In this document: piece by piece, positions 21,815-33,624 of the stretch
Layout: every line of letters begins with the position of its first letter
Numbering within the stretch: position 1 is the first letter of the stretch
Virus record (IMG/VR): IMGVR_UViG_3300042458_001472
Coordinates: 1 to 33,624 of that record
Source: a virus
Length of the DNA: 33,624 nucleotides
Strand: one strand, 5' to 3'
The notes under the pieces: model-generated
Told to the model about the DNA's origin: nothing
The model's input: the letters and a program-made list of their open reading frames with translations, nothing else
The model's database searches: none
Translations under genes and position numbers: made by a program

Positions 21815-22294
21815 TTAGATCTCACCCGCGTCAACCTTACGGCGGCGGTACTTCACGTCGTAGGGCTTGCAGGTCTTGCAGTCGGGGAAGAGCTTCACAA
21901 TTTCCGCCGAGATCTCGTCATCGGAGAGCTTGGTGGTCTTGATGAGGTCGATGATCATCGAGTTGGCCGACGGCTTCTTGACCTTCGGTTCGGTCGACTT
22001 GGGCTCGGCCACCTTCGGTTCCTTCGGTTCCTTCGAACCCTTGGGAGCCTTCAGCGCCTTCGAAGTCTTGGAAACCTCGGCAGGTGCCGCACCATCGGCC
22101 ACCGCCATGGCCGATGCCACATCATCAAAGTACTTGCAGCTGCCATCCCGAGAGCGGAGTAGATCGTCCTTGACCAGATCGTATACAAAGTATGACCCGT
22201 GGAAAACATCGGACTCAAGGACCTGATAGCGGGCGCCGATGATATCCGAAACATAGAGACCTTCGCGGGTGGTCTGCTTGATGATGTTAGTCAT
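21815..22294 (-). CDS. Hypothetical early protein with Lys/Pro repeats and a C-terminal DNA-binding-like module (159 aa)
   Basis: Residues 1-65 form a folded part (SDIIGARYQVLESDVFHGSYFVYDL). Residues about 75-105 are a linker of KEPKxP-like repeats. The C terminus (ANSMIIDLIKTTKLSDDEISAEIVKLFPDCKT...DVKYRRRKV) resembles short helix-turn-helix modules of phage proteins. I place the start at the second ATG (22294), because the leader CATCAACCAAGGGAT...ACATG then matches that of the gene at 23128. Codons are strongly C/G-ending, unlike the structural genes. The function is unknown. Confidence 0.75.
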   Translation of the reverse strand: MTNIIKQTTREGLYVSDIIGARYQVLESDVFHGSYFVYDLVKDDLLRSRDGSCKYFDDVASAMAVADGAAPAEVSKTSKALKAPKGSKEPKEPKVAEPKSTEPKVKKPSANSMIIDLIKTTKLSDDEISAEIVKLFPDCKTCKPYDVKYRRRKVDAGEI

Positions 22295-22321
22295 GTAGGT
22301 CATCCCTTGGTTGATGAGTGG

Positions 22322-22376
22322 ATTATAACCTATCTGGGGCGAGCTGTCAACCAGATATTTATTACAAATCGTTAAC
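22322..22376 (-). promoter_or_regulatory. Early promoter (leftward) with upstream half-palindrome
   Basis: On the minus strand: TTGACA (22350-22345), a 17-bp spacer, and TATAAT (22327-22322). GTTAACGATTTGTAAT, a degenerate copy of the shared palindrome, lies exactly 10 bp upstream of the -35. It drives the 159-residue gene. Confidence 0.82.
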
Positions 22377-22578
22377 CCAGGGTGAGTGCTTCATGATCAG
22401 AATCACCCGCCACACCCGCTTCGAAGCGGGTCACACCGAAAAAGTCAATCGACGAAGCGGGATGGCGCAGAGCAGCCAGGTAGGCCCGAGCCATGTCCCG
22501 AGCTTCATCCAGCGAGCGAGCGACACCGATGGTATACCGTTCGTAGGAGTCACCGTGGTCAACCACAAAAAGTTCCAT
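22372..22578 (-). CDS. Small early hypothetical protein (68 aa)
   Basis: This 68-residue protein (MELFVVDHGDSYERYTIGVARSLDEARDMARAYLAAL...) has a predicted strand-helix layout with Arg/Asp-rich helices. It has its own promoter and an AAGGAAAGGG ribosome site. Its codons end mostly in C or G. It is typical of small host-takeover genes that T4-type phages express early. I do not recognise the family. Confidence 0.72.
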   Translation of the reverse strand: MELFVVDHGDSYERYTIGVARSLDEARDMARAYLAALRHPASSIDFFGVTRFEAGVAGDSDHEALTLG

Positions 22579-22606
22579 GTTTGTACCCTTTCCTTTTGAT
22601 GAGTGG

Positions 22607-22661
22607 ATTATAACCGATCCACCAGGTCAAGTCAACTGGAGTTTTATTACAAATTTGTAAT
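22607..22661 (-). promoter_or_regulatory. Early promoter (leftward) with perfect ATTACAAATTTGTAAT palindrome
   Basis: On the minus strand: TTGACT (22635-22630), a 17-bp spacer, and TATAAT (22612-22607). The 16-bp perfect palindrome lies at 22646-22661, 10 bp upstream of the -35. It drives the 68-residue gene. Confidence 0.85.
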
Positions 22662-22665
22662 CCGA

Positions 22666-22824
22666 TCAGCCTCGGTACCAGATGACCGCGTCACCGATGC
22701 TGATCTCGGCTGCCCGGCCACGACCCATGCGGAGCCAGCGAAGGGCCTCCCGCATGGCCGAGGCCTTGTTGTCCAGGCCCCAGACGAAGGCCAGCTTTCC
22801 GTTCTTGTATGCCGTAAGGGTCAC
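22666..22824 (-). CDS. Small early hypothetical protein (52 aa, GTG start)
   Basis: The frame begins at GTG (22824-22822), with AAAAGGAGAG nine bases upstream, and ends at TGA (22668-22666). The product is MTLTAYKNGKLAFVWGLDN..., with a basic helix (MREALRWLRMGRGRAA) and a short C-terminal strand (ISIGDAVIWYRG). It has its own TTGACT-17-TATAGT promoter and C/G-rich codons like its leftward neighbours. The regular promoter, ribosome site and spacing make it a real gene in spite of its size. The function is unknown. Confidence 0.7.
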   Translation of the reverse strand: MTLTAYKNGKLAFVWGLDNKASAMREALRWLRMGRGRAAEISIGDAVIWYRG

Positions 22825-22848
22825 TTTATCTCTCCTTTTGGAAGGTAC

Positions 22849-22877
22849 ACTATAACCAAACTAGGAATGAAAGTCAA
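22849..22877 (-). promoter_or_regulatory. Early promoter (leftward) for the 52-residue gene
   Basis: On the minus strand: TTGACT (22877-22872), a 17-bp spacer, and TATAGT (22854-22849). No ATTACAAATTTGTAAT element lies upstream. Confidence 0.72.
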
Positions 22878-22885
22878 TAGCAAAG

Positions 22886-23128
22886 TTAGACGTAGACGGC
22901 AGGCTCCAGATCAACCAGGAGGCTGTCATTGGCCCAAGAGGTCCGCTGGCGGTTGAACAGGTAGATGGCAAACTTGCCGACCCCTTCATAGATATCGTAT
23001 ACAGACTTAGAGCCCGTATCCTGATCGACTACCCAGATGACCAGACGGTAAGCCGCATGACCTTGGAGTTCAGCGGGAACCCGCTTTTCCGTGAGGTTCC
23101 GGGAAAGATCCAGGCGGGCTCGGGTCAT
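22886..23128 (-). CDS. Small early hypothetical protein (80 aa)
   Basis: This 80-residue protein (MTRARLDLSRNLTEKRVPAELQGHAAYRLVIWVVDQD...) is followed by strands ending DLEPAVYV. The leader, with AAGGGAT before ATG, is nearly the same as that of the gene at 22294, so the two share a duplicated promoter-leader cassette. Codons are C/G-ending. I do not recognise the family. Confidence 0.72.
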   Translation of the reverse strand: MTRARLDLSRNLTEKRVPAELQGHAAYRLVIWVVDQDTGSKSVYDIYEGVGKFAIYLFNRQRTSWANDSLLVDLEPAVYV

Positions 23129-23155
23129 GTGGGCAATCCCTTGGTTGATGAGTGG

Positions 23156-23184
23156 ATTATAACCGATCCTAGGATGTTTGTCAA
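23156..23184 (-). promoter_or_regulatory. Early promoter (leftward) for the 80-residue gene
   Basis: On the minus strand: TTGACA (23184-23179), a 17-bp spacer, and TATAAT (23161-23156). It opens leftward transcription from the repeat-rich divergent region. Confidence 0.82.
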
Positions 23185-23472
23185 CCCAATTAGATCAACA
23201 ACTTAGATCTAACACATTGAGCTTATTGGACAAACTTTTTGAACTTTTTTGCAATCAGCTACCAGCGATCTAAGCAACCTTAGTGGGTTTACTTACCATT
23301 AGAGCAACTTAGATCGTTGGTAGCTGAACTTCTTGACTAAACCATTGATTTAATTAGGTTTTACTATAGCGATGAGTTTGGCTAAACCATTGATCTAATT
23401 AAGTTTTTATTCTTTACCGTTCTCTAGCCCTATGGACCTGGAATGACGGTTACAATCTGTTACAAAACTAGT
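23185..23472. repeat. Gene-free AT-rich divergent region with inverted and direct repeats
   Basis: No gene is seen here between the outermost leftward and rightward promoters. A 20-bp inverted repeat with a single G-T pair (arms 23255-23274 and 23308-23327) begins CAGCTACCAGCGATC. A 26-bp direct repeat starting CTAAACCATTGAT (23337-23362 and 23382-23407) has two mismatches at 45-bp spacing. Short AACTTTTT repeats and TTAGATCTAA also occur. An origin of replication or a control region for divergent early transcription is possible. Confidence 0.65.
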
Positions 23473-23502
23473 GGTGACTTTTGGCTCGGAGCCGTATATA
23501 AT
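23450..23502 (+). promoter_or_regulatory. Early promoter (rightward) with TTACAA repeats upstream
   Basis: GTGACT (23474-23479), a 17-bp spacer, and TATAAT (23497-23502). Two TTACAA repeats lie in the place where other promoters carry the palindrome. It drives the SWIM-domain gene. Confidence 0.7.
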
Positions 23503-23525
23503 AGGTAGTGACAAATAAGGATACT

Positions 23526-23954
23526 ATGATGGATTATCCGGTAGGATCCATGGTAGAGGTTACTATTGACATGAGCCATACGCTGCAGTACTTTGCCTAT
23601 GACTCCCTGCATAGGGCCCGAAAGTCTGATGTACTCCGTGGTACTGTGGTCGTGGCGCCTGCCTGGCTCAAGGGCCCTCACTTCTGTCTTCTTAACTCAG
23701 AGTCCAAAGTTCTCAACTACATTCCTGAGCATCGGATTCTGTCAGTCAATGATGCGCCACTCAAGTCTAAGGTCAAGGCTAAGGATAGAGTATACAATGT
23801 GACTTCGTCTAAGACCGGTGAAGTGTATACCGTCCATCTCAATGGTCAGACTCGAGTCTGGTCTTGCACTTGTACTGGGTGGCAGTTCCACCGCAAGTGT
23901 CGGCACACGGTTAGGTGTGAGCTGAAAGCCGAACGGATCCCTGTTACAAACTGA
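23526..23954 (+). CDS. SWIM zinc-finger protein (142 aa)
   Basis: The start ATG at 23526 follows TAAGGA. The N-terminal 90 residues have a beta-rich pattern (PVGSMVEVTIDM, RGTVVVAPAWLKGPHFCLL). The C terminus, YTVHLNGQTRVWSCTCTGWQFHRKCRHTVRCE, has the CxC...CxH spacing of a SWIM zinc finger, used for DNA or protein binding. As the first rightward gene from the divergent region, it is probably expressed early. A transcription or replication regulator is plausible but not shown. Confidence 0.8.
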   Translation: MMDYPVGSMVEVTIDMSHTLQYFAYDSLHRARKSDVLRGTVVVAPAWLKGPHFCLLNSESKVLNYIPEHRILSVNDAPLKSKVKAKDRVYNVTSSKTGEVYTVHLNGQTRVWSCTCTGWQFHRKCRHTVRCELKAERIPVTN

Positions 23955-23996
23955 TACAAAACTCTTGGTGACTTTAATAGCTGATTGTGATATAAA
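23943..23996 (+). promoter_or_regulatory. Early promoter (rightward) overlapping the end of the SWIM gene
   Basis: GTGACT (23968-23973), a 17-bp spacer, and TATAAA (23991-23996), with GTTACAAACTGATACAAAAC upstream in the same register as the promoter at 23474. It drives the 70-residue gene. Confidence 0.68.
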
Positions 23997-24024
23997 GAAA
24001 CTATCAACAGAGGATGCCAAAGCC

Positions 24025-24237
24025 ATGGCTCGGAAGACGGTTTCGGTGGACTATCTGAGGGACACGGTCAACAAGGCACTGGCCACCAGCACTTGCGGCC
24101 GGGAAGGTCGGGAAGCTATGAATGCCATTTTGTGTGATGTCCTGCATTCCACTGGGAACTACCGTGGCTTCCGGTATTTGGCCAAATACCGGTGCAATTT
24201 TATTGACACCGACGACACCCGTCGACATTACTACTAA
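24025..24237 (+). CDS. Small early hypothetical protein (70 aa)
   Basis: I place the start at ATG 24025, downstream of the promoter, with CAGAGGA ten bases upstream. A longer frame would begin inside the -35 box. The protein (MARKTVSVDYLRDTVNKALATSTCGREGREAMNAILCDVLHSTGNYRGFRYL...) is helical with a Gly/Arg-rich turn. Short phage proteins of this look are common, but I cannot assign a function. Confidence 0.7.
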   Translation: MARKTVSVDYLRDTVNKALATSTCGREGREAMNAILCDVLHSTGNYRGFRYLAKYRCNFIDTDDTRRHYY

Positions 24238-24260
24238 GTCAACCAAAAAGGATCCATGAC

Positions 24261-24536
24261 ATGGATTTTCTGAAGATCTTTGGTAACGCCTTTGTTAATA
24301 GCTTGGCGGCCAATCATGCAGCCAATGCAAATGCAGACAATGACCATAAGAGCCGCATCGTAAACATCCAAGCTCAGTCGCCACATGGTGGAACCTGGTT
24401 TCCTGCAGGCGTTTATACCGGCATTGCCAACGATGGCTTCAGCATGAACATGGCACTGCAGAATGCCCAACGGCAGTTCCCGAACCACCGGATTCGGGCA
24501 GTTGACGGTCATGGCCGCCTGCTTGACATGCTCTGA
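24261..24536 (+). CDS. Small early hypothetical protein (91 aa)
   Basis: This 91-residue protein has an Ala/Asn-rich helical N terminus (NAFVNSLAANHAANANADND) and a C-terminal part with alternating strands and helix (FSMNMALQNAQRQFPNHRIRAVDGHGRLLDML). It follows the 70-residue gene by 23 bp with AAAAGGA upstream, so both may share the promoter at 23968. I do not recognise the family. Confidence 0.68.
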   Translation: MDFLKIFGNAFVNSLAANHAANANADNDHKSRIVNIQAQSPHGGTWFPAGVYTGIANDGFSMNMALQNAQRQFPNHRIRAVDGHGRLLDML

Positions 24537-24548
24537 GCCTTGCCTAAG

Positions 24549-24603
24549 ATTACAAATTTGTAATAAAACTCCAGTTGACAGCCCCCCCTGAATTTGTTAT
24601 AAT
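24549..24603 (+). promoter_or_regulatory. Early promoter with perfect ATTACAAATTTGTAAT palindrome
   Basis: The palindrome at 24549-24564, a 10-bp gap, TTGACA (24575-24580), a 17-bp spacer and TATAAT (24598-24603). It drives the 53-residue gene and probably the membrane/SPFH genes. Confidence 0.87.
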
Positions 24604-24625
24604 GACATCATCAAAAGGGAAAGGT

Positions 24626-24787
24626 ATGAACATGGAAGCTACTCTGGAACAGTCCTTTGTTATCGAGCTCGAGCTTTTGATTAGCTACTATATCAACAAG
24701 GGTGTAGCTCCGGGTGTGCTTGAAGAGCATACGTACGAAGCCATTGAAAACATGTTTGAAAATTTCAGTTCCAAAAACGAAGAATAG
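24626..24787 (+). CDS. Small acidic early protein (53 aa)
   Basis: The start ATG at 24626 follows AAGGGAAAGG and lies 23 bp after the -10 box. The product (MNMEATLEQSFVIELELLISYYINKGVAPGVLEEHTYEAIENMFENF...) is acidic and helical. An upstream TTG-start extension would begin at the -35 box and is rejected. The function is unknown. Confidence 0.7.
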   Translation: MNMEATLEQSFVIELELLISYYINKGVAPGVLEEHTYEAIENMFENFSSKNEE

Positions 24788-24857
24788 TGTATACCGGATT
24801 ACGAAAGTTTAACAAGTGCCGTCACATTATCCGACTTATTGCAGAAGAGGAATAAGA

Positions 24858-25079
24858 ATGACTCCAAAGTTTAGTACAGTTGCCAATTTTGTAACGCGAA
24901 TTACAGGCATCTGTGTGACTGCCATCCTAGTTATGGTGTATGTTCCAAAGGTATTTTCACTTGAGAGTGAACTTGTCTTTATAGCATTGCCTTTTGCTAT
25001 CCTTTTTGTAACCCTGACGCTCTATGCGCAGCTTGCTTCCCTCATAAAGTATATCAACCGCATCATGGAGAAGAATTGA
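24858..25079 (+). CDS. Small two-helix membrane protein (73 aa)
   Basis: This 73-residue protein has two likely transmembrane helices, TGICVTAILVMVYV (about 16-29) and LVFIALPFAILFVTLTLYA (about 39-57), and a basic tail. The start ATG follows AGAGGAATAAGA. It ends one base before the SPFH lipoprotein gene, which suggests a shared membrane role. The earlier in-frame start would read through an upstream gap without a ribosome site and is rejected. Confidence 0.72.
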   Translation: MTPKFSTVANFVTRITGICVTAILVMVYVPKVFSLESELVFIALPFAILFVTLTLYAQLASLIKYINRIMEKN

Positions 25080-25080
25080 T

Positions 25081-25905
25081 ATGAATAAGATTGCTAAGAC
25101 CTTTGCTATTAGTGCTCTGGTTCTGTCGACCACTGCAGCATGTGACTATATTGAGCCTGGCACCGTAGGTGTTAAGGTCACTACTGCTGGTGGTGAGCGA
25201 GGTGTGCAGCGTGCTCTGCTTGAGCCTGGTCGTCACTGGATTGGTTTCACTGAGCGGCTCTACACATTCCCCACGTTCGTGCAAAACTATGTATGGACAA
25301 AGGCAATCACTCCGCAGAGTCCTACCGACGAAGCCATTGACTTTCAGAGCCGCGAGGGTGCTAATATCAACAGCGACTTTGGCATTCAATATAGCTTTCA
25401 GCGAGATCGTATTCCGGACATCTTTGCCCGATATCGTATGGGTGCAATCGAGATTACTCGACAGACTCTTCGCAATGAAGTCCGTGATGCACTTACCAGT
25501 GCCGCTAGTACTCGCCGCATCGAGGATCTGATTGGTGAAGGTAAGAATGCATTTATGGATGAAGTACTCAAGACGGTTAAGGAGCGTATGGCCCCACACG
25601 GCATTATTGTCGACAACGTATATGCTGTGGGCCGATTCCGACTGGCAGCAGAAACCGAAGCAGCTATCAATCGCCGTATCACTGCAAGTCAGGAAACTGA
25701 ACAGCGCCGACAGCAGGTAGAGACTGCACGTCAGGAAGCCGAGCGCCAGCGGATTGAGGCTGATGGACAGGCTGCAGCTAACCGCATCATTGCGCTGAGC
25801 ATTACACCTGAGCTTGTTCAGTACATGGCTGCGCAGAAGTGGAACGGACAGCTGCCCGCTGCTACAAATGGTGTGCCATTCATTAACCTTCCGGGGACTC
25901 GCTAA
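25081..25905 (+). CDS. SPFH/prohibitin-family lipoprotein
   Basis: This 274-residue protein has an N-terminal signal segment (MNKIAKTFAISALVLSTTAAC) ending in a possible lipobox Cys at residue 21. A band-7/SPFH domain follows (EPGTVGVKVTTAGGERGVQRALLEPGRHWIG, NSDFGIQYSFQRDRIPDIFARYR, LRNEVRDALTSAAS). The last third is an Ala/Glu/Gln/Arg-rich coiled coil (RRITASQETEQRRQQVETARQEAERQRIEADGQAAANRI), as in prohibitins and HflK/HflC. Such proteins form large membrane scaffolds and can regulate FtsH protease. It lies between two small membrane protein genes with one-base spacing. Confidence 0.87.
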   Translation: MNKIAKTFAISALVLSTTAACDYIEPGTVGVKVTTAGGERGVQRALLEPGRHWIGFTERLYTFPTFVQNYVWTKAITPQSPTDEAIDFQSREGANINSDFGIQYSFQRDRIPDIFARYRMGAIEITRQTLRNEVRDALTSAASTRRIEDLIGEGKNAFMDEVLKTVKERMAPHGIIVDNVYAVGRFRLAAETEAAINRRITASQETEQRRQQVETARQEAERQRIEADGQAAANRIIALSITPELVQYMAAQKWNGQLPAATNGVPFINLPGTR

Positions 25906-26340
25906 ATGAATTCGCTTTCTTGGCTGATTTATGCCGCTAATGTTGCAGAAAGTCTTTCAGGCTTTCTGGTTTTTATAACGATTCTCTTTGCTATTGCAAC
26001 AATTGGTGCTGTTATTGTTGCTTTTGTCCATATGGATGAACAGCCTGATTTTAGGCCACTCAGTGAACCGATTCTAACACTTCGGCGAAAGCGAAAGGTA
26101 GCGGCATTTAAGCTTTCATGTGCATTTTTTGCTGCTATGACAATTGTAGGTATTACCACTTCACTAATTCCAAACCGTCAGACCGTGCTGCTAATTGCCG
26201 CTTCTGAAATTGGCGAACGAGTCATGACTCACCAGCGTGTACAGGATGTAGTTGATCCGTCCATTAATCTTCTTCAAACTTGGATCCAGCAGCAGACTCA
26301 GCAGATCCAGCAGCAGATGCAACCGCGGGCTGTCAGGTAA
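25906..26340 (+). CDS. Membrane protein with Gln-rich tail (144 aa)
   Basis: This 144-residue protein has two predicted transmembrane helices: SGFLVFITILFAIATIGAVI (about 18-37) and FFAAMTIVGITTSLI (about 73-87). Its C terminus (LLQTWIQQQTQQIQQQMQ) is a Gln-rich helix likely to form a coiled coil. It starts directly after the SPFH gene stop, so the pair are translated together. It may be a partner of the SPFH protein. The family is not recognised. Confidence 0.75.
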   Translation: MNSLSWLIYAANVAESLSGFLVFITILFAIATIGAVIVAFVHMDEQPDFRPLSEPILTLRRKRKVAAFKLSCAFFAAMTIVGITTSLIPNRQTVLLIAASEIGERVMTHQRVQDVVDPSINLLQTWIQQQTQQIQQQMQPRAVR

Positions 26341-26361
26341 GTTGGTATAGGCTGTTAACGG

Positions 26362-26416
26362 ATTACAAATTTGTAATAAAACTACCGTTGACAGCCGCCT
26401 ACCAGCCTGGTATAAT
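26362..26416 (+). promoter_or_regulatory. Early promoter with perfect ATTACAAATTTGTAAT palindrome
   Basis: The palindrome at 26362-26377, a 10-bp gap, TTGACA (26388-26393), a 17-bp spacer and TATAAT (26411-26416). It drives the RNA ligase gene. Confidence 0.88.
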
Positions 26417-26440
26417 GAGGCTATAAGGAAAGGAATTGAT

Positions 26441-27472
26441 ATGTCTGATCGTAAGCTTGCTACCGTCCGTCGCGTTGCGGACATTCAGCCCATCCCTGAT
26501 GCTGATGCTATTGACGTAGCTACGGTTGACGGATGGAAGGTTGTAGTCAAGAAGGGCGACTTCCAGGTCGGTGATCTGGCTGTGTACTTTGAGATTGACT
26601 CTTGGATTCCAAAGGCTATTGCGCCTTTCCTGAACCGTGGCCGTACGTACAACGGAGTTGAGGGTGAACGTCTGCGAACAATTAAGCTTTGTAAGCAGAT
26701 CAGCCAGGGACTTCTGCTCCCGGTGTCTGCTGTAGCCACATTTGATGAACGGGATTCCAACTCGTACATTTGTGATATTGACTATCTTGTAGAGGGTGAT
26801 GATCTGACCGAGTATCTTCAGATTCAGAAGTACGAAAAGCCCATTCATGGTTCTCTTGCCGGTGTAGTCAAGGGTAATTTCCCTAGCTTCCTGCGCAAGA
26901 CTGATCAGGAACGCGTTCAGAATCTTACTAAGGACATCCGTCGTTGGGAAGAGGAAGGCGCTCGGTGGGAAGTTACCGAGAAGCTTGATGGCTCTTCGAT
27001 GACGGTTTATCGGCACAATGATGTGACCGGTGTCTGCTCTCGTAACTATGATCTGGAAGAGACCGAAGGCAATGCATTCTGGCAGGCTGTTCGTCGTGAA
27101 GATATCGACCAGCGCCTTCCTGCAGGTTTTGCTCTGCAGGGCGAGCTGATTGGCCCTGGTATTCAGGGCAATAAGTATGGTCTTGATGCCACCGACTTCT
27201 TTGTCTTTGATGTCTGGGATATCAACAAGTCTTGCTACCTGACTCCCGATGAGCGCCGTAAGTTTTGCAAGGCCTTTGCCTTCAATCATGTTCCTGTGCT
27301 TGCTACCGGAACGACTGGCACTTCTGACGTTAATGCACTAATTGCATCGGCCGATGGCCAGTCTCTAATTGGTAAGAAGCCGCCTCGCGAAGGAATGGTG
27401 TACAAGAATATGGCTAATGACACTAGCTTCAAGATTATTAGTAATCGCTGGCTACTGAAGAACGAGGAGTGA
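26441..27472 (+). CDS. RNA ligase, Rnl5/DraRnl-like
   Basis: This 343-residue protein has a two-part layout. An N-terminal OB-fold-like domain (residues 1-150: VDGWKVVVKKGDFQVGDLAVYFEIDSWIP) is followed by a nucleotidyltransferase domain with motif I EKLDGSSM (active Lys near 180), a motif III-like FVFDVWD after FALQGELIGPGIQGNKYG, motif IV EGMVYKN, and motif V SFKIISNRWLLK. The N-terminal OB domain is the arrangement of Deinococcus RNA ligase (Rnl5), which seals nicks with a 3'-OH RNA end. In the phage it may repair tRNAs or other RNAs cut by host defences. Confidence 0.9.
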   Translation: MSDRKLATVRRVADIQPIPDADAIDVATVDGWKVVVKKGDFQVGDLAVYFEIDSWIPKAIAPFLNRGRTYNGVEGERLRTIKLCKQISQGLLLPVSAVATFDERDSNSYICDIDYLVEGDDLTEYLQIQKYEKPIHGSLAGVVKGNFPSFLRKTDQERVQNLTKDIRRWEEEGARWEVTEKLDGSSMTVYRHNDVTGVCSRNYDLEETEGNAFWQAVRREDIDQRLPAGFALQGELIGPGIQGNKYGLDATDFFVFDVWDINKSCYLTPDERRKFCKAFAFNHVPVLATGTTGTSDVNALIASADGQSLIGKKPPREGMVYKNMANDTSFKIISNRWLLKNEE

Positions 27473-27476
27473 TATA

Positions 27477-27686
27477 ATGCAACAGCACTTTACCTTTGAG
27501 ATGTATGCTCCGACTAGTATATCGGAGTCCGGCATTCCTATTGTAGACCGTGTTAATATTCAAATGCAAGGCGCCGATCTATCTGTTTATGATGTGATTG
27601 GTAAGTTTGAAGACTTCCTCAGGTCGTGTGGCTATGCTGCATGTCTTGAATGTAAGCGTATTGACATTCTAGGAAAGAATGAATAA
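27477..27686 (+). CDS. Small hypothetical protein after RNA ligase (69 aa)
   Basis: This 69-residue protein (MQQHFTFEMYAPTSISESGIPIVDRVNIQMQ...DVIGKFEDFLRSCGY...) has two Cys in CLEC near the end. The ribosome site GAGGAG lies at the end of the ligase gene. Its stop overlaps the next start (TAATGG). It is probably co-transcribed with the RNA ligase gene. The function is unknown. Confidence 0.72.
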   Translation: MQQHFTFEMYAPTSISESGIPIVDRVNIQMQGADLSVYDVIGKFEDFLRSCGYAACLECKRIDILGKNE

Positions 27687-27985
27687 TGGAAATTAATGGA
27701 AACCTCTACGTAAAGGTAGATGATGAGCAACTTGACGAAATTGTAGTCAAGCATTGTCAGGCAGCACTCGATGCCTGTACGTCAGTTCTAGAATTTGAGT
27801 CCATTGCTGTAATGGATAAGAGCTGTGAGGATGCACAGCATCACATCGACACTATTACTCATTATGAGAATTATGCCAGTGCACTTCGTATAGTCATTAA
27901 GTTCTTTGGTGGAGAACCGATAGATACATCAGAGAATGTGTTTAGAACGGAAACCGCCAATGCATCAACTGACTGTAGTACGTGA
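27686..27985 (+). CDS. Hypothetical helical protein (99 aa)
   Basis: This 99-residue acidic protein (MEINGNLYVKVDDEQLDEIVVKHCQAALDACTSV...) has a helical central part and ends in a polar tail. It overlaps the previous stop and the next gene's start. Small Cys/His-containing helical proteins of this kind occur in other T4-type phages without known function. Confidence 0.72.
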   Translation: MEINGNLYVKVDDEQLDEIVVKHCQAALDACTSVLEFESIAVMDKSCEDAQHHIDTITHYENYASALRIVIKFFGGEPIDTSENVFRTETANASTDCST

Positions 27986-28409
27986 CTTTAGATCTTGCTG
28001 GGAAGGGTGTTTGATAGGTGATCCTGTCAGACCTCATATCCCAGCATGGCAAAGAGTGGCTCATAATCGTGAGTACTTTTTGCTCAGCGAAAATTATTTT
28101 GTGCGTGCAGTTACATGCGTTGCTTATCTAGATGATATTCCTACAATTGAAGATGATCTCTTTGTAGACGTCTCGCGTCAAAATGTAGCATGCTTTTACA
28201 CGGTCTGGAGCAATGTTTCAGGAGCTGGACGCGAAGTCTTAAACAAGACACTGCGGCACATCAAAGCAACAAGACCGTATACTAAAGTAGCCTGTACTCT
28301 CAGCCCTAAGACTGCCATGGCTCGTAAGTTCCATCTTACTAACGGTGCCAAACTTTTTTGCGAAAATGAGTTGACAGACAACTACATATATGATATAAAT
28401 ACTCTATAA
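27960..28409 (+). CDS. GNAT-like acetyltransferase-related phage protein (149 aa)
   Basis: The start ATG at 27960 lies inside the end of the previous gene. The product has strands and helices typical of GNAT folds, and the C-terminal block VSGAGREVLNKTLRHIK...KVACTLSPKTAMARKFHLTNGAKLFCENELTDNYIYD matches a phage family often called putative N-acetyltransferases. An acetyl-CoA binding loop (QxxGxG/A) is only partly kept (SGAGRE). The activity is unproven. It is the last protein gene before the tRNA region. Confidence 0.7.
   Translation: MHQLTVVRDFRSCWEGCLIGDPVRPHIPAWQRVAHNREYFLLSENYFVRAVTCVAYLDDIPTIEDDLFVDVSRQNVACFYTVWSNVSGAGREVLNKTLRHIKATRPYTKVACTLSPKTAMARKFHLTNGAKLFCENELTDNYIYDINTL
28371..28401 (+). 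promoter_or_regulatory. Hybrid early/late promoter for the tRNA region
   Basis: TTGACA (28371-28376), a 17-bp spacer, and TATAAATA (28394-28401). The last element serves both as a sigma70-like -10 (TATAAA) and as a perfect T4-type late octamer. It lies at the end of the GNAT-like gene, 17 bp before the first tRNA. The same hybrid is found before the tmRNA. Confidence 0.72.
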
Positions 28410-28417
28410 GGAAATAT

Positions 28418-28494
28418 GGTCGCGTAGCCCAACTGGCAGAGGCGGCAGATTCAAAATCTGTTAAGTGTCGGTTCGAATCCGACCGTGACTACCA
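28418..28494 (+). tRNA. tRNA with anticodon CAA (Leu), short variable loop
   Basis: A cloverleaf is readable: acceptor GGTCGCG / CGTGACT (with G1-U72 and one internal G-U), D-arm GCCC...GGC, anticodon stem GCAGA / TCTGT with loop TTCAAAA, T-arm GTCGG-TTCGAAT-CCGAC, discriminator A and encoded CCA. The variable loop has only about five bases (TAAGT), although leucine tRNAs normally have a long variable arm. Confidence 0.9.
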
Positions 28495-28495
28495 A

Positions 28496-28571
28496 GCCCG
28501 CTTAGCCCACCGGCAGAGGCAAAAGACTTAAAATCTTTACAGGACGGGTTCGAGTCCCGTAGCGGGTACCA
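28496..28571 (+). tRNA. tRNA with anticodon TAA (Leu), short variable loop
   Basis: Acceptor GCCCGCT / AGCGGGT (again G1-U72), D-arm GCCC...GGC, anticodon stem AAAGA / TCTTT with loop CTTAAAA, variable loop of five bases (ACAGG), T-arm ACGGG-TTCGAGT-CCCGT, then ACCA. It starts two bases after the previous tRNA. Like that one, it has the leucine anticodon but no long variable arm. Confidence 0.9.
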
Positions 28572-28620
28572 ATTTTTGCGCTTTATACCATAAAAAGCTG
28601 CTCCAGATGTAAAAAGTGGG

Positions 28621-28649
28621 TTGACAAATCAAGGAATTTGATATATAGT
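28621..28649 (+). promoter_or_regulatory. Promoter for the structured RNA array / Ro-like gene
   Basis: TTGACA (28621-28626), a 17-bp spacer, and TATAGT (28644-28649). The whole promoter lies within an inverted repeat, GGTTGAC / GTCAACC (about 28619-28625 / 28648-28654), with an inner ATCAA / TTGAT. Confidence 0.7.
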
Positions 28650-28661
28650 CAACCTATAAAT

Positions 28662-28690
28662 TGAATGAGACACTCACTAAGCCTCATTCC
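28662..28690 (+). ncRNA. Leader hairpin before the RNA array
   Basis: GAATGAG and CTCATTC form a perfect 7-bp stem around a 12-13-nt loop. It lies at the expected 5' end of the transcript, just before the first array unit. It lacks the CAGCA motif. Confidence 0.55.
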
Positions 28691-28698
28691 CGACTATT

Positions 28699-28761
28699 AG
28701 GATCGGTTCAGCAAACAAAAAACGCTAAACCCTGTAAGTCTTAGCGGACCAAAACGATCCC
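28699..28761 (+). ncRNA. Structured RNA array unit 1
   Basis: The closing stem is GGATCG / CGATCC (28700-28705 / 28755-28760), with the motif GTTCAGCAAAC just inside the 5' strand. An internal hairpin CGCTAA / TTAGCG follows. GGTTC can also pair with GGACC in the 3' part. Units of the same plan follow at 10-17 bp spacing. Confidence 0.6.
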
Positions 28762-28771
28762 GACAAGTTTT

Positions 28772-28863
28772 AGGAAGCTTGCAGCAAACCATATCTAACT
28801 CAATGGTAGAGCAATCGCCTTCAACGCGATAGGAGCGGTTCAAATCCGCACTATAGGCTTCCT
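28772..28863 (+). ncRNA. Structured RNA array unit 2, with a tRNA-like core (anticodon TCA)
   Basis: The closing stem is AGGAAGC / GCTTCCT (28772-28778 / 28857-28863), with the CAGCAAACC motif inside. The core imitates a tRNA: D-arm CTCAATGGTAGAG, perfect anticodon stem ATCGC / GCGAT with loop CTTCAAC (anticodon TCA at 28821-28823), and T-arm GCGG-TTCAAAT-CCGC. A normal acceptor stem and CCA are missing. This layout recalls bacterial YrlA Y RNAs, where a tRNA mimic is held by a Ro-binding stem. Confidence 0.6.
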
Positions 28864-28873
28864 GTCTAATATT

Positions 28874-28995
28874 AGAGTGGTTACAGCAACACCGTCGCGC
28901 CTACAAGCGCATCCAGAACAGTTGGGGAGCTTCGGCAAAACCAACAACCTTGTTCTTCGATTTCTCAAGGCTAAAAAAGAAGTAGGAGCCACTCT
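28874..28995 (+). ncRNA. Structured RNA array unit 3
   Basis: The closing stem is AGAGTGG / CCACTCT (28874-28880 / 28989-28995), with TTACAGCAACACC inside. Internal hairpins include GCGC / GCGC, AGAACA / TGTTCT and, nested in the latter, GTTGG / CCAAC. It is the longest unit (122 nt). Confidence 0.58.
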
Positions 28996-29012
28996 GTTAC
29001 TTTATTAGTTCT

Positions 29013-29103
29013 AGGATCGGTTCAGCAAAACCTTTTAGTTGGTTCGACTCCAACATTGCCAACCAAGACCTGGCAGCTGCCCGAGGGGGCAAAAAACGAT
29101 CCT
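29013..29103 (+). ncRNA. Structured RNA array unit 4, with tRNA-like T-arm and CCA before an acceptor-like strand
   Basis: The closing stem is AGGATCG / CGATCCT (29013-29019 / 29097-29103), with GTTCAGCAAAACC inside. The core has T-arm GTTGG-TTCGACT-CCAAC followed by ATTGCCA-ACCA, then TGGCAGC, which can pair with TTGCCA, and a GCCC / GGGC hairpin. The order of halves is that of a permuted tRNA. Confidence 0.58.
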
Positions 29104-29114
29104 GTTATAACCCT

Positions 29115-29163
29115 AGGTTGGGTTCAGCATCTAAAGCTTTGATATAGCAACCAAGTCCAACCT
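29115..29163 (+). ncRNA. Structured RNA array unit 5
   Basis: The closing stem is AGGTTGG / CCAACCT (29115-29121 / 29157-29163), with GTTCAGCATC inside and a further GGTT / AACC pairing. It ends 22 bp before the start of the Ro-like gene, so the array probably continues into its mRNA leader. Confidence 0.55.
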
Positions 29164-29185
29164 GTTAAACATTATGGAGATTATG

Positions 29186-30610
29186 ATGAATACGTTCGTA
29201 AATGCCGTTATCAACCAAGATTCCAGAACTCAGAATGGTATGAAGGCTCGTGCTTCTACCGCGTCTGCATGCGTAGACCTCTTCTTCAAGATTGGCGCTC
29301 TGCGTGGACAGGATCCTATTCCTGCGTTTACGGCGGCATTTGTTGAGGATGCCGAGATTGCCACTCGTATTGCACTCTGGGCTCGTGATGCCCGCAATGG
29401 TGCAGGTGAGCGTGAGATCTACCGTAAGGTTCTTCGTCATGCAGCAAAGAATCTGATGGGTCATGAGCTGACTCGACTCATTGACAAGACTCCTGAGCTC
29501 GGCCGTTGGGATGACCTTCTGGTTCTGCTTGAGGACGATGTAGATGAAGACATTCAGAATGTTGTTGCATCCAAGATCGGCCGTGCACTGATGGCCAATG
29601 ATGGTCTGTGTGCCAAGTGGACCCCGCGTAAGGGTGCTATGGCTGTCAAGCTGCGCAATAAGCTCGGCATGAGCCCTAAGCAGTACCGCAAGACCCTTGT
29701 CACTGCATCTAAGGTTGTTGAGACTCAGATGTGTGCCAAGAACTGGGATGAGATCAACTTCTCTCATGTTCCGTCTGTAGCGGCTAGCCGTTATAAGAAG
29801 GCCTTCAACCGCCACACTCCGAAGTATAAGGAGTGGGTTGATAAGCTGGTCAAGGGCGACAAGACTGTAAAGGTTAACGCTGGTGCAGTTTATCCGTATG
29901 ACGTCCTGAAGGGTGTCAGCAACTACGCTTGGCGTTCAGACTATAACAAGACTGAACTTGATGTCGTTAAGGCTCAGTGGGATGCTCTGCCTAACTACGT
30001 TGGTGATGCTAACGTGTTGGCTCTTGTTGACGTCTCTGGCTCAATGGGTGCTGGTGTTGCAGGTGGTAAGACTACCGCAATGGACGTAGCTGTCAGCCTT
30101 GGTCTGTACTGTGCTGATAAGAACAAGGGCAAGTTCAAGGATACATTCCTGACCTTCTCTTCTTCCCCTCAGCTTTTGCATCTGAAGGGTGATATCCTGC
30201 AGAAGGTGCAGCAGATGGTAACTTCGAAGTGGGAGATGAATACCAATCTTCATGCTGCGTTTGAGAAGATTCTTGACGTTGCAATCAAGGGTGATGTACC
30301 TCAGTCCGAGATGCCTGCTACTCTGCTGATCATGTCTGACATGCAGTTTGACCAGTGCACTCGCTTTGATGATACTGCAATGCAGATGATTCGCCGTAAG
30401 TACGAAACTGCTGGCTATACTGTTCCGAATATTGTGTTCTGGAACATCATGGCAGCTAGCAATGTGCCGGTGAAGTTCAATGAGCGTGGAGTTGCTTTGG
30501 TCTCCGGCTTTAGCCCTTCGATCTTGAAGTCCGTGCTCTCAGGAGACATGGAAGATATGACTCCAACGGGTGTTATGATGAAGACTATCATGCATGAGCG
30601 CTATGCCTAA
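29186..30610 (+). CDS. Ro60/TROVE-like RNA-binding protein with vWA domain
   Basis: This 474-residue protein has an N-terminal helical-repeat region (residues 1-240) with segments such as VDLFFKIGALRGQD, ALWARDARNGAGEREIYRKVL and GRWDDLLVLLED. This pattern is typical of TROVE/DUF2828-type proteins. A C-terminal von Willebrand A domain has the metal site DVSGSMG (272-278) and LLIMSDMQFD. Ro60 proteins bind misfolded RNAs and Y RNAs and can gate RNA degradation. Start: ATG 29186, five bases after GGAGA. It follows an array of structured RNAs including a tRNA mimic. Strong codon bias suggests high expression. Confidence 0.82.
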   Translation: MNTFVNAVINQDSRTQNGMKARASTASACVDLFFKIGALRGQDPIPAFTAAFVEDAEIATRIALWARDARNGAGEREIYRKVLRHAAKNLMGHELTRLIDKTPELGRWDDLLVLLEDDVDEDIQNVVASKIGRALMANDGLCAKWTPRKGAMAVKLRNKLGMSPKQYRKTLVTASKVVETQMCAKNWDEINFSHVPSVAASRYKKAFNRHTPKYKEWVDKLVKGDKTVKVNAGAVYPYDVLKGVSNYAWRSDYNKTELDVVKAQWDALPNYVGDANVLALVDVSGSMGAGVAGGKTTAMDVAVSLGLYCADKNKGKFKDTFLTFSSSPQLLHLKGDILQKVQQMVTSKWEMNTNLHAAFEKILDVAIKGDVPQSEMPATLLIMSDMQFDQCTRFDDTAMQMIRRKYETAGYTVPNIVFWNIMAASNVPVKFNERGVALVSGFSPSILKSVLSGDMEDMTPTGVMMKTIMHERYA

Positions 30611-30626
30611 ATAAGGCATAGTTTGC

Positions 30627-30697
30627 GTCGGTGAAGTGTTACGGTAGCACGGCGGTCTCCAAAACCGCAGGCGAAGGTTCGACTCCTACCACCTTCG
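30627..30697 (+). tRNA. tRNA-like, anticodon CCA (Trp), imperfect stems
   Basis: D-arm GTGT-TACGGTA-GCAC and anticodon stem GCGGT / ACCGC with loop CTCCAAA are good. The T-stem GAAGG / CCTAC has one mismatch. The acceptor pairs GGTG / CACC near the T-stem but has a two-base internal mismatch, and CCA is not encoded. An alternative acceptor GGTGAAG / CTTCGCC would disturb the D and T spacing. It is either a weak or a degenerate tRNA gene. Confidence 0.65.
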
Positions 30698-30720
30698 CCG
30701 CTTTGTATACAGTATCTTAG

Positions 30721-30775
30721 ATTACAAATTTGTAATAAAACTACCGTTGACAGCCTCCTACAATCCTGGTATAAT
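30721..30775 (+). promoter_or_regulatory. Early promoter with perfect ATTACAAATTTGTAAT palindrome
   Basis: The palindrome at 30721-30736, a 10-bp gap, TTGACA (30747-30752), a 17-bp spacer and TATAAT (30770-30775), then a leader shared with the promoter at 31083 (TATAATGGTCATATCAACAG and following bases). Confidence 0.88.
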
Positions 30776-30803
30776 GGTCATATCAACAGAGGGATACGAC
30801 GAG

Positions 30804-30986
30804 ATGCGAAACTTCGAAGTTGAGATTGCTATCTCTGACCGTCAATCCGGTAAGTTTATCGGTCTCTTCCTGGTCGAGGTTACTGCATACACTGAGAATG
30901 ATGCTATCGACCATGCTCTCTTCAAGGCTGACTCGTCCTTTCTTCTGAGTCTGAAAGCCTCCTGTAACGGAATTAAGGAAGTCTGA
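30804..30986 (+). CDS. Small early hypothetical protein (60 aa)
   Basis: The start ATG at 30804 follows AGAGGG. The product (MRNFEVEIAISDRQSGKFIGLFLVEVTAYTENDAIDHALF...) has a beta-beta-alpha layout. A longer frame from upstream would read through the promoter and is rejected. Its leader is a near copy of that of the next gene. The function is unknown. Confidence 0.72.
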   Translation: MRNFEVEIAISDRQSGKFIGLFLVEVTAYTENDAIDHALFKADSSFLLSLKASCNGIKEV

Positions 30987-31025
30987 GTTCTTGCTCTTTG
31001 ACAATTGAATATGGTATCTTGTATA

Positions 31026-31088
31026 CGGTCTAGGTTACAAAAAGTTAACAAATCTACCGTTGACAAAGTGACCTAGACCGGTTATAAT
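31026..31088 (+). promoter_or_regulatory. Early promoter inside a long inverted repeat
   Basis: TTGACA (31060-31065), a 17-bp spacer, and TATAAT (31083-31088). GTTACAAAAAGTTAAC (31034-31049) sits at the palindrome position, 10 bp from the -35. CGGTCTAGGT (31026-31035) and ACCTAGACCG (31071-31080) form a perfect 10-bp inverted repeat across the upstream element, -35 and spacer. Confidence 0.82.
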
Positions 31089-32902: not shown

Positions 32903-33199
32903 ATGTCTTATGTGCGTCTTTCTGACATTGAGTTCGCTACTCCTGAACATCGTGCCGCTTGTGAGACGTTATACAAAGATATCCTTGCTCTAGAATTTCA
33001 AATTCTCAACGATGAAGAAATGCTAGAATACTTCAAGAGCGTCATGGGTGAAAAAATGGGCAATGTAATTGCTGGTCCTACAGTCATGATTAATAAGAGA
33101 ATCTTGACAGCAATGAAGTTGACTTTCTGGTACTACACTAACAAGTCACCTTCTCACGTAGTTGGTCATGAGCCGAAAATGAACATATTTAATCCTTGA
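32903..33199 (+). CDS. Hypothetical protein (98 aa)
   Basis: This 98-residue protein (MSYVRLSDIEFATPEHRAACETLYKDILALEFQILNDEEMLEYFKSVMG...) has an acidic helical first half and a second half with KRILTAMKLTFWYYTNKSPSH. It starts with AAAGG upstream. Its coding end (TCCTTGACATT) lies at the -35 of the tmRNA promoter. I do not recognise the family. Confidence 0.72.
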   Translation: MSYVRLSDIEFATPEHRAACETLYKDILALEFQILNDEEMLEYFKSVMGEKMGNVIAGPTVMINKRILTAMKLTFWYYTNKSPSHVVGHEPKMNIFNP

Positions 33200-33226
33200 C
33201 ATTAATCACTAAGTGTGATATAAATA
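33196..33226 (+). promoter_or_regulatory. Hybrid early/late promoter for tmRNA
   Basis: TTGACA (33196-33201), a 17-bp spacer, and TATAAATA (33219-33226). It has the same double-use layout as the promoter before the first tRNAs. Confidence 0.78.
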
Positions 33227-33230
33227 CAGA

Positions 33231-33490
33231 GTTGCCGTTGATAACGATCAAATAAGTTAGTCAGGACCGCGGGGCAGTACCGCGCATCTCCACCAATTTT
33301 TGGTAGCTCGCCTAAGTTCTGGATGCTTTAAAGAGCAAGAGGAAAACTCTGCCGCCAGTATGGGGATGAAACAGGATCGACTGATAACAGTAAGGGTTGA
33401 AGTAGGCACCGGTGCGGAAGCTACCTTAACGCAACAAAACAAACAAATGCTAATTCGAATGAAAGACTAGCGTTGGCAGCTTAATTGCTG
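33231..33490 (+). ncRNA. ssrA: Circularly permuted two-piece tmRNA
   Basis: The acceptor piece comes first: GTTAGTCAGGAC, T-arm CGCGG-GGCAGTA-CCGCG, CATCTCC and ACCA, ending at 33295. After a 66-nt spacer the coding piece starts with GGGGATG (33362-33368), which pairs with CATCTCC to give the 7-bp acceptor stem, then AAACAGGATCGAC. CTGATAAC pairs with GTTAGTCAG as helix P2. The tag frame is 33449-33484 and encodes ANSNERLALAA, followed by hairpin CAGC-TTAATT-GCTG (P5). tmRNA frees stalled ribosomes and tags the stuck protein for proteolysis. The right end of the coding piece is not certain. Confidence 0.9.
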
Positions 33491-33624
33491 TCGGAGTTTG
33501 TAGGGTACTCGGCAACAGAAACTCTACGTTTTCTACCACCTGACAGATTTGGTGCTTGTAGTTTTGTCAAACCTTTATTCCAACCACCACCTCTGGTGCA
33601 ATCAGCACATTTTCTACTACAATA
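33481..33624 (-). CDS. C-terminal part of an antisense homing-endonuclease-like gene (partial)
   Basis: A minus-strand frame enters at the right edge and ends at TAA (33483-33481), inside the tmRNA P5 region. The 47 visible residues include YCSRKCADCTRGGGWNKGLTK, whose zinc-binding Cys pairs and WNKGLTK tract are common in phage HNH-type homing endonucleases. The rest is a basic tail (GGRKRRVSV). The start and nuclease core lie outside the window, so the assignment is tentative. Confidence 0.5.
   Translation of the reverse strand, partial: YCSRKCADCTRGGGWNKGLTKLQAPNLSGGRKRRVSVAEYPTNSDSN

Follow-up and report, generated by a model that had tools for sequence, protein, structure and literature searches.

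A 16-bp dyad, ATTACAAATTTGTAAT in its perfect form, stands at a fixed distance upstream of most of the presumed early, sigma70-type promoters in an uncultured member of the T4 superfamily of phages. The DNA analysed here (the window) is the whole of IMG/VR record IMGVR_UViG_3300042458_001472, 33,624 bases in length, and is probably a fragment of the phage genome. The element is real, conserved and helically precise in its placement, and its sequence, register, conservation and helical phasing are matters of direct observation. We favour its interpretation as the site of a dimeric protein combined with UP (alpha-CTD) function over a role for alpha-CTD alone; judged from the sequence, the chance that this preference is correct is about even.

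T4-superfamily genes in the window include those for the head protease, scaffold, major capsid protein, a UvsW-like helicase and an SbcC-like gp46, and a glucosyltransferase of HMC type is also encoded. The T4-type capsid, UvsW, gp46/47 and late TATAAATA promoters (with phrog_138, phrog_16 and phrog_77) place the phage within the superfamily. The major capsid protein shows 71% identity to its counterpart in Stenotrophomonas phage DLP6 and approximately 65% to those of Sinorhizobium phages phiM12 and phiN3. The scaffold and major capsid genes (1042, 2117) and another gene (4255) have late-type TATAAATA boxes in front of them, whereas the palindrome promoters are of sigma70 type and precede small ORFs, from which we infer that they are early. 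A permuted, phage-encoded tmRNA of alpha type (33192-33530) hints at an alphaproteobacterial host or gene donor; it is served by a separate TTGACA..TATAAATA promoter, in which the -10 region can be read both as a sigma70 box and as a T4-type late box, as can that of the tRNA promoter at 28371. Immediately upstream of a TROVE/Ro60-like gene (29174), a promoter and five stem-closed RNA units occupy 28621-29170. The units have outer stems of 7-8 bp (for example AGGATCG..CGATCC), most contain a GGTTCAGCAAA-like motif, one encloses a tRNA-like fold, and there is otherwise no Rfam match; they are possibly Y-RNA-like ligands.

Four exact copies of the perfect palindrome occur in the window, where 0.33 would be expected even if up to three mismatches were allowed. 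As the first-pass annotation had reported, each precedes a promoter in one fixed register, on both strands: in all four, exactly 10 bp separate the end of the palindrome from a near-consensus sigma70 -35 box, which is followed, after a 17-bp spacer, by the -10 box TATAAT. These and the related sites are as follows.

22646..22661, minus strand: perfect palindrome ATTACAAATTTGTAAT; -35 box TTGACT at 22635-22630, -10 box TATAAT at 22612-22607
24549..24564, plus strand: perfect palindrome ATTACAAATTTGTAAT; -35 box TTGACA at 24575-24580, -10 box TATAAT at 24598-24603
24565..24574, plus strand: 10-bp spacer AAAACTCCAG, overlying the proximal alpha-CTD subsite and starting with an A-tract found in all groups of relatives
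26362..26377, plus strand: perfect palindrome ATTACAAATTTGTAAT, upstream of an RNA ligase gene; -35 box TTGACA at 26388-26393, -10 box at 26411-26416
30721..30736, plus strand: perfect palindrome ATTACAAATTTGTAAT; -35 box TTGACA at 30747-30752, -10 box at 30770-30775
22361..22376, minus strand: variant dyad GTTAACGATTTGTAAT in the same register; -35 box TTGACA at 22350-22345
31034..31049, plus strand: variant dyad GTTACAAAAAGTTAAC in the same register; -35 box TTGACA at 31060-31065
23450..23465, plus strand: direct repeat TTACAA-N4-TTACAA, period 10; downstream copy in register with -35 box GTGACT at 23474
23944..23959, plus strand: direct repeat TTACAA-N4-ATACAA; downstream copy in register with -35 box GTGACT at 23968

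The annotation had also proposed at least four degenerate sites. Two, at 22361 and 31034, are dyads exactly in register; those before 23474 and 23968 (TTACAATCTGTTACAA and TTACAAACTGATACAA) proved instead to be direct repeats of 10-bp period, conserved in a close relative (L005), in which the downstream copy is in register and a dyad is not. A relaxed dyad pattern, the 14-mer TTA(AC/CN)N4(NG/GT)TAA, matches the window six times, compared with 0.4 times in dinucleotide-shuffled sequence. Every one of these sites has a gap of 11 between the 14-mer and the -35 box and none lies away from promoters, so that the palindrome is not equally common elsewhere in the window; under random placement, the probability of finding at least three of six sites no more than 45 bp upstream of a promoter is about 0.0004, even before a common gap is required. 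The dyad is absent from the tRNA promoters (28371, 31490), the promoter of the unusual RNA array (28621), the tmRNA promoter (33196) and three protein-gene promoters in the window (22877, 23184 and 18243). A TTGTATAC-like sequence recurs just upstream of dyads (window 30705; L006 1110 and 1450; L008 3520, minus strand), and the intergenic region 23190-23450, between divergent promoters, contains repeats including TAAACCATTGATYTAATTA and TTAGATCTAA.

Relatives were collected by scanning viral contigs for exact patterns. As the motif itself served as the bait for most loci, its frequency among them is biased; the register at other promoters of the fetched contigs, and the occurrence of displaced copies, were not conditioned upon. 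The element is carried by sister contigs of the window (g1; L005-L009 and others), by a sister group (g2; L010-L012, L014, L015, L041, L043, L050 and L075, with L049 similar) that shares 80-92% identity with g1 on some proteins, and by a more distant T4-like lineage (g3; L019, L025 and L121) which, in the contig fragments compared, has only T4 core genes in common with the others, at approximately 30-50% identity. Matches in L016-L026 were obtained with patterns one base short of the true register; only those backed by several independent promoters were retained, and it was from these that the g3 lineage (L019, L025) emerged. Single pattern matches inside coding DNA of relatives were set aside as chance. 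No dyad precedes a promoter in T4, Acj9, phiM12, Melnitz, BUCT-ZZ01 or the sampled 100 kb of DLP6, and the promoter blocks of all three groups are without a near match among cultured phages.

The fixed register speaks for a protein site: besides the six of six in the window, 11 of 11 dyads in the g1 relatives and 44 of 58 in g2 (expected background about 8) lie at gap 11. Dyads in g2 at other gaps are near background, except for a single dyad at 21 and three more at 32; the gaps in g3 are mostly 10, with others of 20 and 21 and one of 1. Relative to the usual 10/11, gaps of 20, 21 and 32 place the dyad one or two helical turns further upstream, the helical-phase placement expected of a dimeric operator. 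Such displaced dyads occur in L122, L121 and L025, with tandem upstream sites in L010/L015 and L012; some are mutually homologous, leaving about five independent cases. Since nearly all displaced copies are shifted by one or two turns, the face of the helix presented to RNA polymerase appears to matter.

The conserved positions also have an internal logic. The left arm is TTAC or TTAAC and the right arm GTAA or GTTAA, the same two alternatives being mirrored on both sides; g1 prefers TTAC/GTAA, g2 TTAAC/GTAA and g3 TTAC/GTTAA. Relative to the -35 box, a C is conserved at -22/-21 and a G at -16/-15. In g1 and in g2, independently of each other, the dyad is best centred at -18.5 relative to the -35 box, scoring 0.61 and 0.85, as against 0.15-0.24 and no such centre in T4, Acj9 and Melnitz. 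Two-fold symmetry of the conserved positions is thus clear in g1 and g2 and unclear in g3, where a direct repeat of 10-11 bp period scores higher; in g2 the direct-repeat reading scores nearly as high, both results owing in part to the symmetry of TTAA. The upstream region holds 11-15 bits of information, compared with 4-5.4 bits in T4, Acj9 and Melnitz. This total does not by itself prove a specific protein, since 12 bits are also reached by L016, a contig whose promoters follow plain T- and A-tracts. L016 and L125 are apparently contigs of Gram-positive-type phages, with many strong promoters behind T-run/A-run UP elements, a few of which contain TTGTAATAA at a similar place. A role as an RNA hairpin or terminator was rejected, the predicted stability being about -3 kcal/mol and the TTAAC/GTAA variants disrupting the pairing.

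The A/T-tract consensus of UP elements is NNAAAWWTWTTTTNNNAAANNN. Promoters with the palindrome in g1 match it at 8.8/14 in register and 10.6/14 at a shift of -1 (shuffled, 6.6), whereas those of g2 match it at 6.4/14 in the standard register, equal to shuffled sequence, and at 8.8/14 with a shift of -2. The dyad covers -61 to -46 and the 10-bp spacer -45 to -36, which is the location of a UP element (about -60 to -37); in the numbering of PMC2613000 the dyad overlies the distal alpha-CTD subsite (-58 to -45) and the spacer the proximal one. It may be, therefore, that host alpha-CTDs alone read A-tracts one helical turn apart in a distal UP element peculiar to these lineages, the palindrome being an optimum of DNA shape rather than an operator. 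This is a serious rival, with a substantial but minority chance of being the whole explanation, and it may hold together with protein binding. The proximal stretch is A-rich, movable alpha-CTDs are compatible with helical phasing too, and T4 early promoters are described as being of UP/-35/TGn/-10 type (PMC2988021). The window promoters resemble these in superfamily, near-consensus sigma70 boxes, many TGn motifs and an A/T-rich upstream element, and resemble promoters with a full UP element of the rrnB P1 type in location, A-tracts and partial consensus match. Against alpha-CTD acting alone, the mirrored C and G fall in no UP consensus, symmetry and interchangeable TTAC/TTAAC arms distinguish the element from that of rrnB P1, and the low upstream information in T4 and Acj9, without a dyad, contrasts with a 16-bp dyad containing C/G in fixed register. 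Both suggestions of the first-pass annotation, a dimeric regulator and a UP-like element, are thus partly supported, the one by the dyad centre, mirrored arms and conserved C/G, the other by position and the g1 match, and these data separate them incompletely.

Two further explanations carry little weight. The dyad could be an operator through which a repressor or switch protein of the phage, bound upstream and acting on alpha-CTD, later shuts off (or switches on) the early promoters; it is common to many early protein-gene promoters, and the stable-RNA promoters (28371, 28621, 31490 and 33196) lack it and could thus escape the switch. We consider this improbable, as the site does not overlap the core promoter and no candidate repressor was found among the 95 ORFs of the window and relatives (best 25 families). 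Less probable still, and very unlikely in our view, is that the element has no function of its own and consists of copies of a mobile promoter cassette, like the PeSLs of T4-type phages, spread by recombination. The original PeSL papers (Arbiol 2010, Comeau 2014; cited in PMC4503421) reportedly describe stem-loops, not an upstream dyad. PeSLs and the window have in common repeated early-promoter cassettes between shuffled small genes, and near-identical 33-bp blocks recur here. The L005 contig retains the promoter after the orthologue of gene 24261-24533, where it drives a different gene (window 24575 versus L005 5787, minus strand: same upstream gene and promoter block, different downstream gene), which suggests promoter-bounded gene swapping. 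Some -35 boxes are flanked by PeSL-like inverted repeats, in the window at 31028-31083 and 22350 (minus strand), with GGTCTAGG..CCTAGACC and ATCTGG..CCAGAT, and in g2 (L010-L015) with ACCCGGTA..TACCGGGTTTTTT; similar repeats occur in Acj9. Nevertheless, information beyond the element is approximately zero, so recent duplication alone does not account for its conservation, and the arms are retained in three lineages, and in displaced copies, despite divergence of the spacers.

Among known systems, the nearest functional parallel is phage Mu Pm, where a dimer of Mor recognises a pair of 5-bp inverted repeats within a 16-bp element adjoining a UP subsite (PMC4390567). That site has its centre at -43.5 and takes the place of a -35 box, whereas the window dyad is centred at about -53.5 with the -35 box intact; no Mor homologue was identified. 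A literature search for the literal motif gave one match, TTAACnnnnGTTAA, the box of the CRP/FNR-family regulator NssR (PMC1274295), which indicates that such a dyad can serve as a dimer site. Seven g2 sites at gap 11 and a few displaced g2/g3 sites are literally TTAAC-N4-GTTAA, and the helical-phase placement is as in class I activation. Activators of this family are centred near -61.5 or further upstream (class I) or at -41.5 (class II). The dyad centre of about -53.5, taking the start as 7 nt after the -10 box, agrees with neither; most window sites are TTAC-N6-GTAA and misfit the 5-4-5 form, and no such regulator was identified. The likeness is a lead, not an assignment. A search for the same arrangement at host promoters gave three matches in 84,980 species genomes, which is chance level; these were in Bacteroidota and Verrucomicrobiota and had no sigma70 -10 box at 17 bp.

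The small phage DNA-binding protein that the first-pass annotation had called for did not emerge. No regulator was recognised with Pfam or PHROGs among the 95 ORFs of the window and related contig fragments (best 25 families), and no protein was specific to g1, g2 and g3 together among the matches listed for these fragments. The ORF at 21818-22303, directly under a motif promoter and with homologues in g2 and L049, was considered as a candidate and set aside, its model being of low confidence (pLDDT 65) and its three-helix C-terminus occurring in g1 only. As g3 has only T4 core genes in common with g1 and g2 in these fragments, no shared phage factor is visible. A further argument against an activator is that core promoters so close to consensus should have no need of one.

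On the favoured interpretation of a dimeric-protein site with UP function, the dyad at -61 to -46 would be an upstream activating element of early sigma70 promoters laid out as dyad, A-rich stretch over the proximal subsite, consensus -35 box, often TGn, and -10 box. The dyad would most likely be occupied by a DNA-binding protein with two-fold symmetry, from either host or phage, that would contact RNA polymerase always from the same face of the helix, assisted by alpha-CTD contacts to A-tracts. We infer from the sequence the binding of a protein, its dimeric nature and activation rather than repression. The broader proposal, that a single unrecognised dimeric activator has its operator at the early promoters of all three T4-superfamily lineages, is plausible but somewhat short of evenly balanced; such an activator might be a conserved host protein that has been co-opted, or a phage protein delivered with the DNA or made right after. 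T4-type early promoters have been thought to win purely by matching the recognition elements of host polymerase. If the proposal is true, these would be T4-type phages with an activator-assisted early class. That several uncultured lineages share a dyad of specific sequence and helical phasing suggests that takeover begins with an additional recognition step. The element would also provide a short bait sequence for its protein, and perhaps a marker of the host group.
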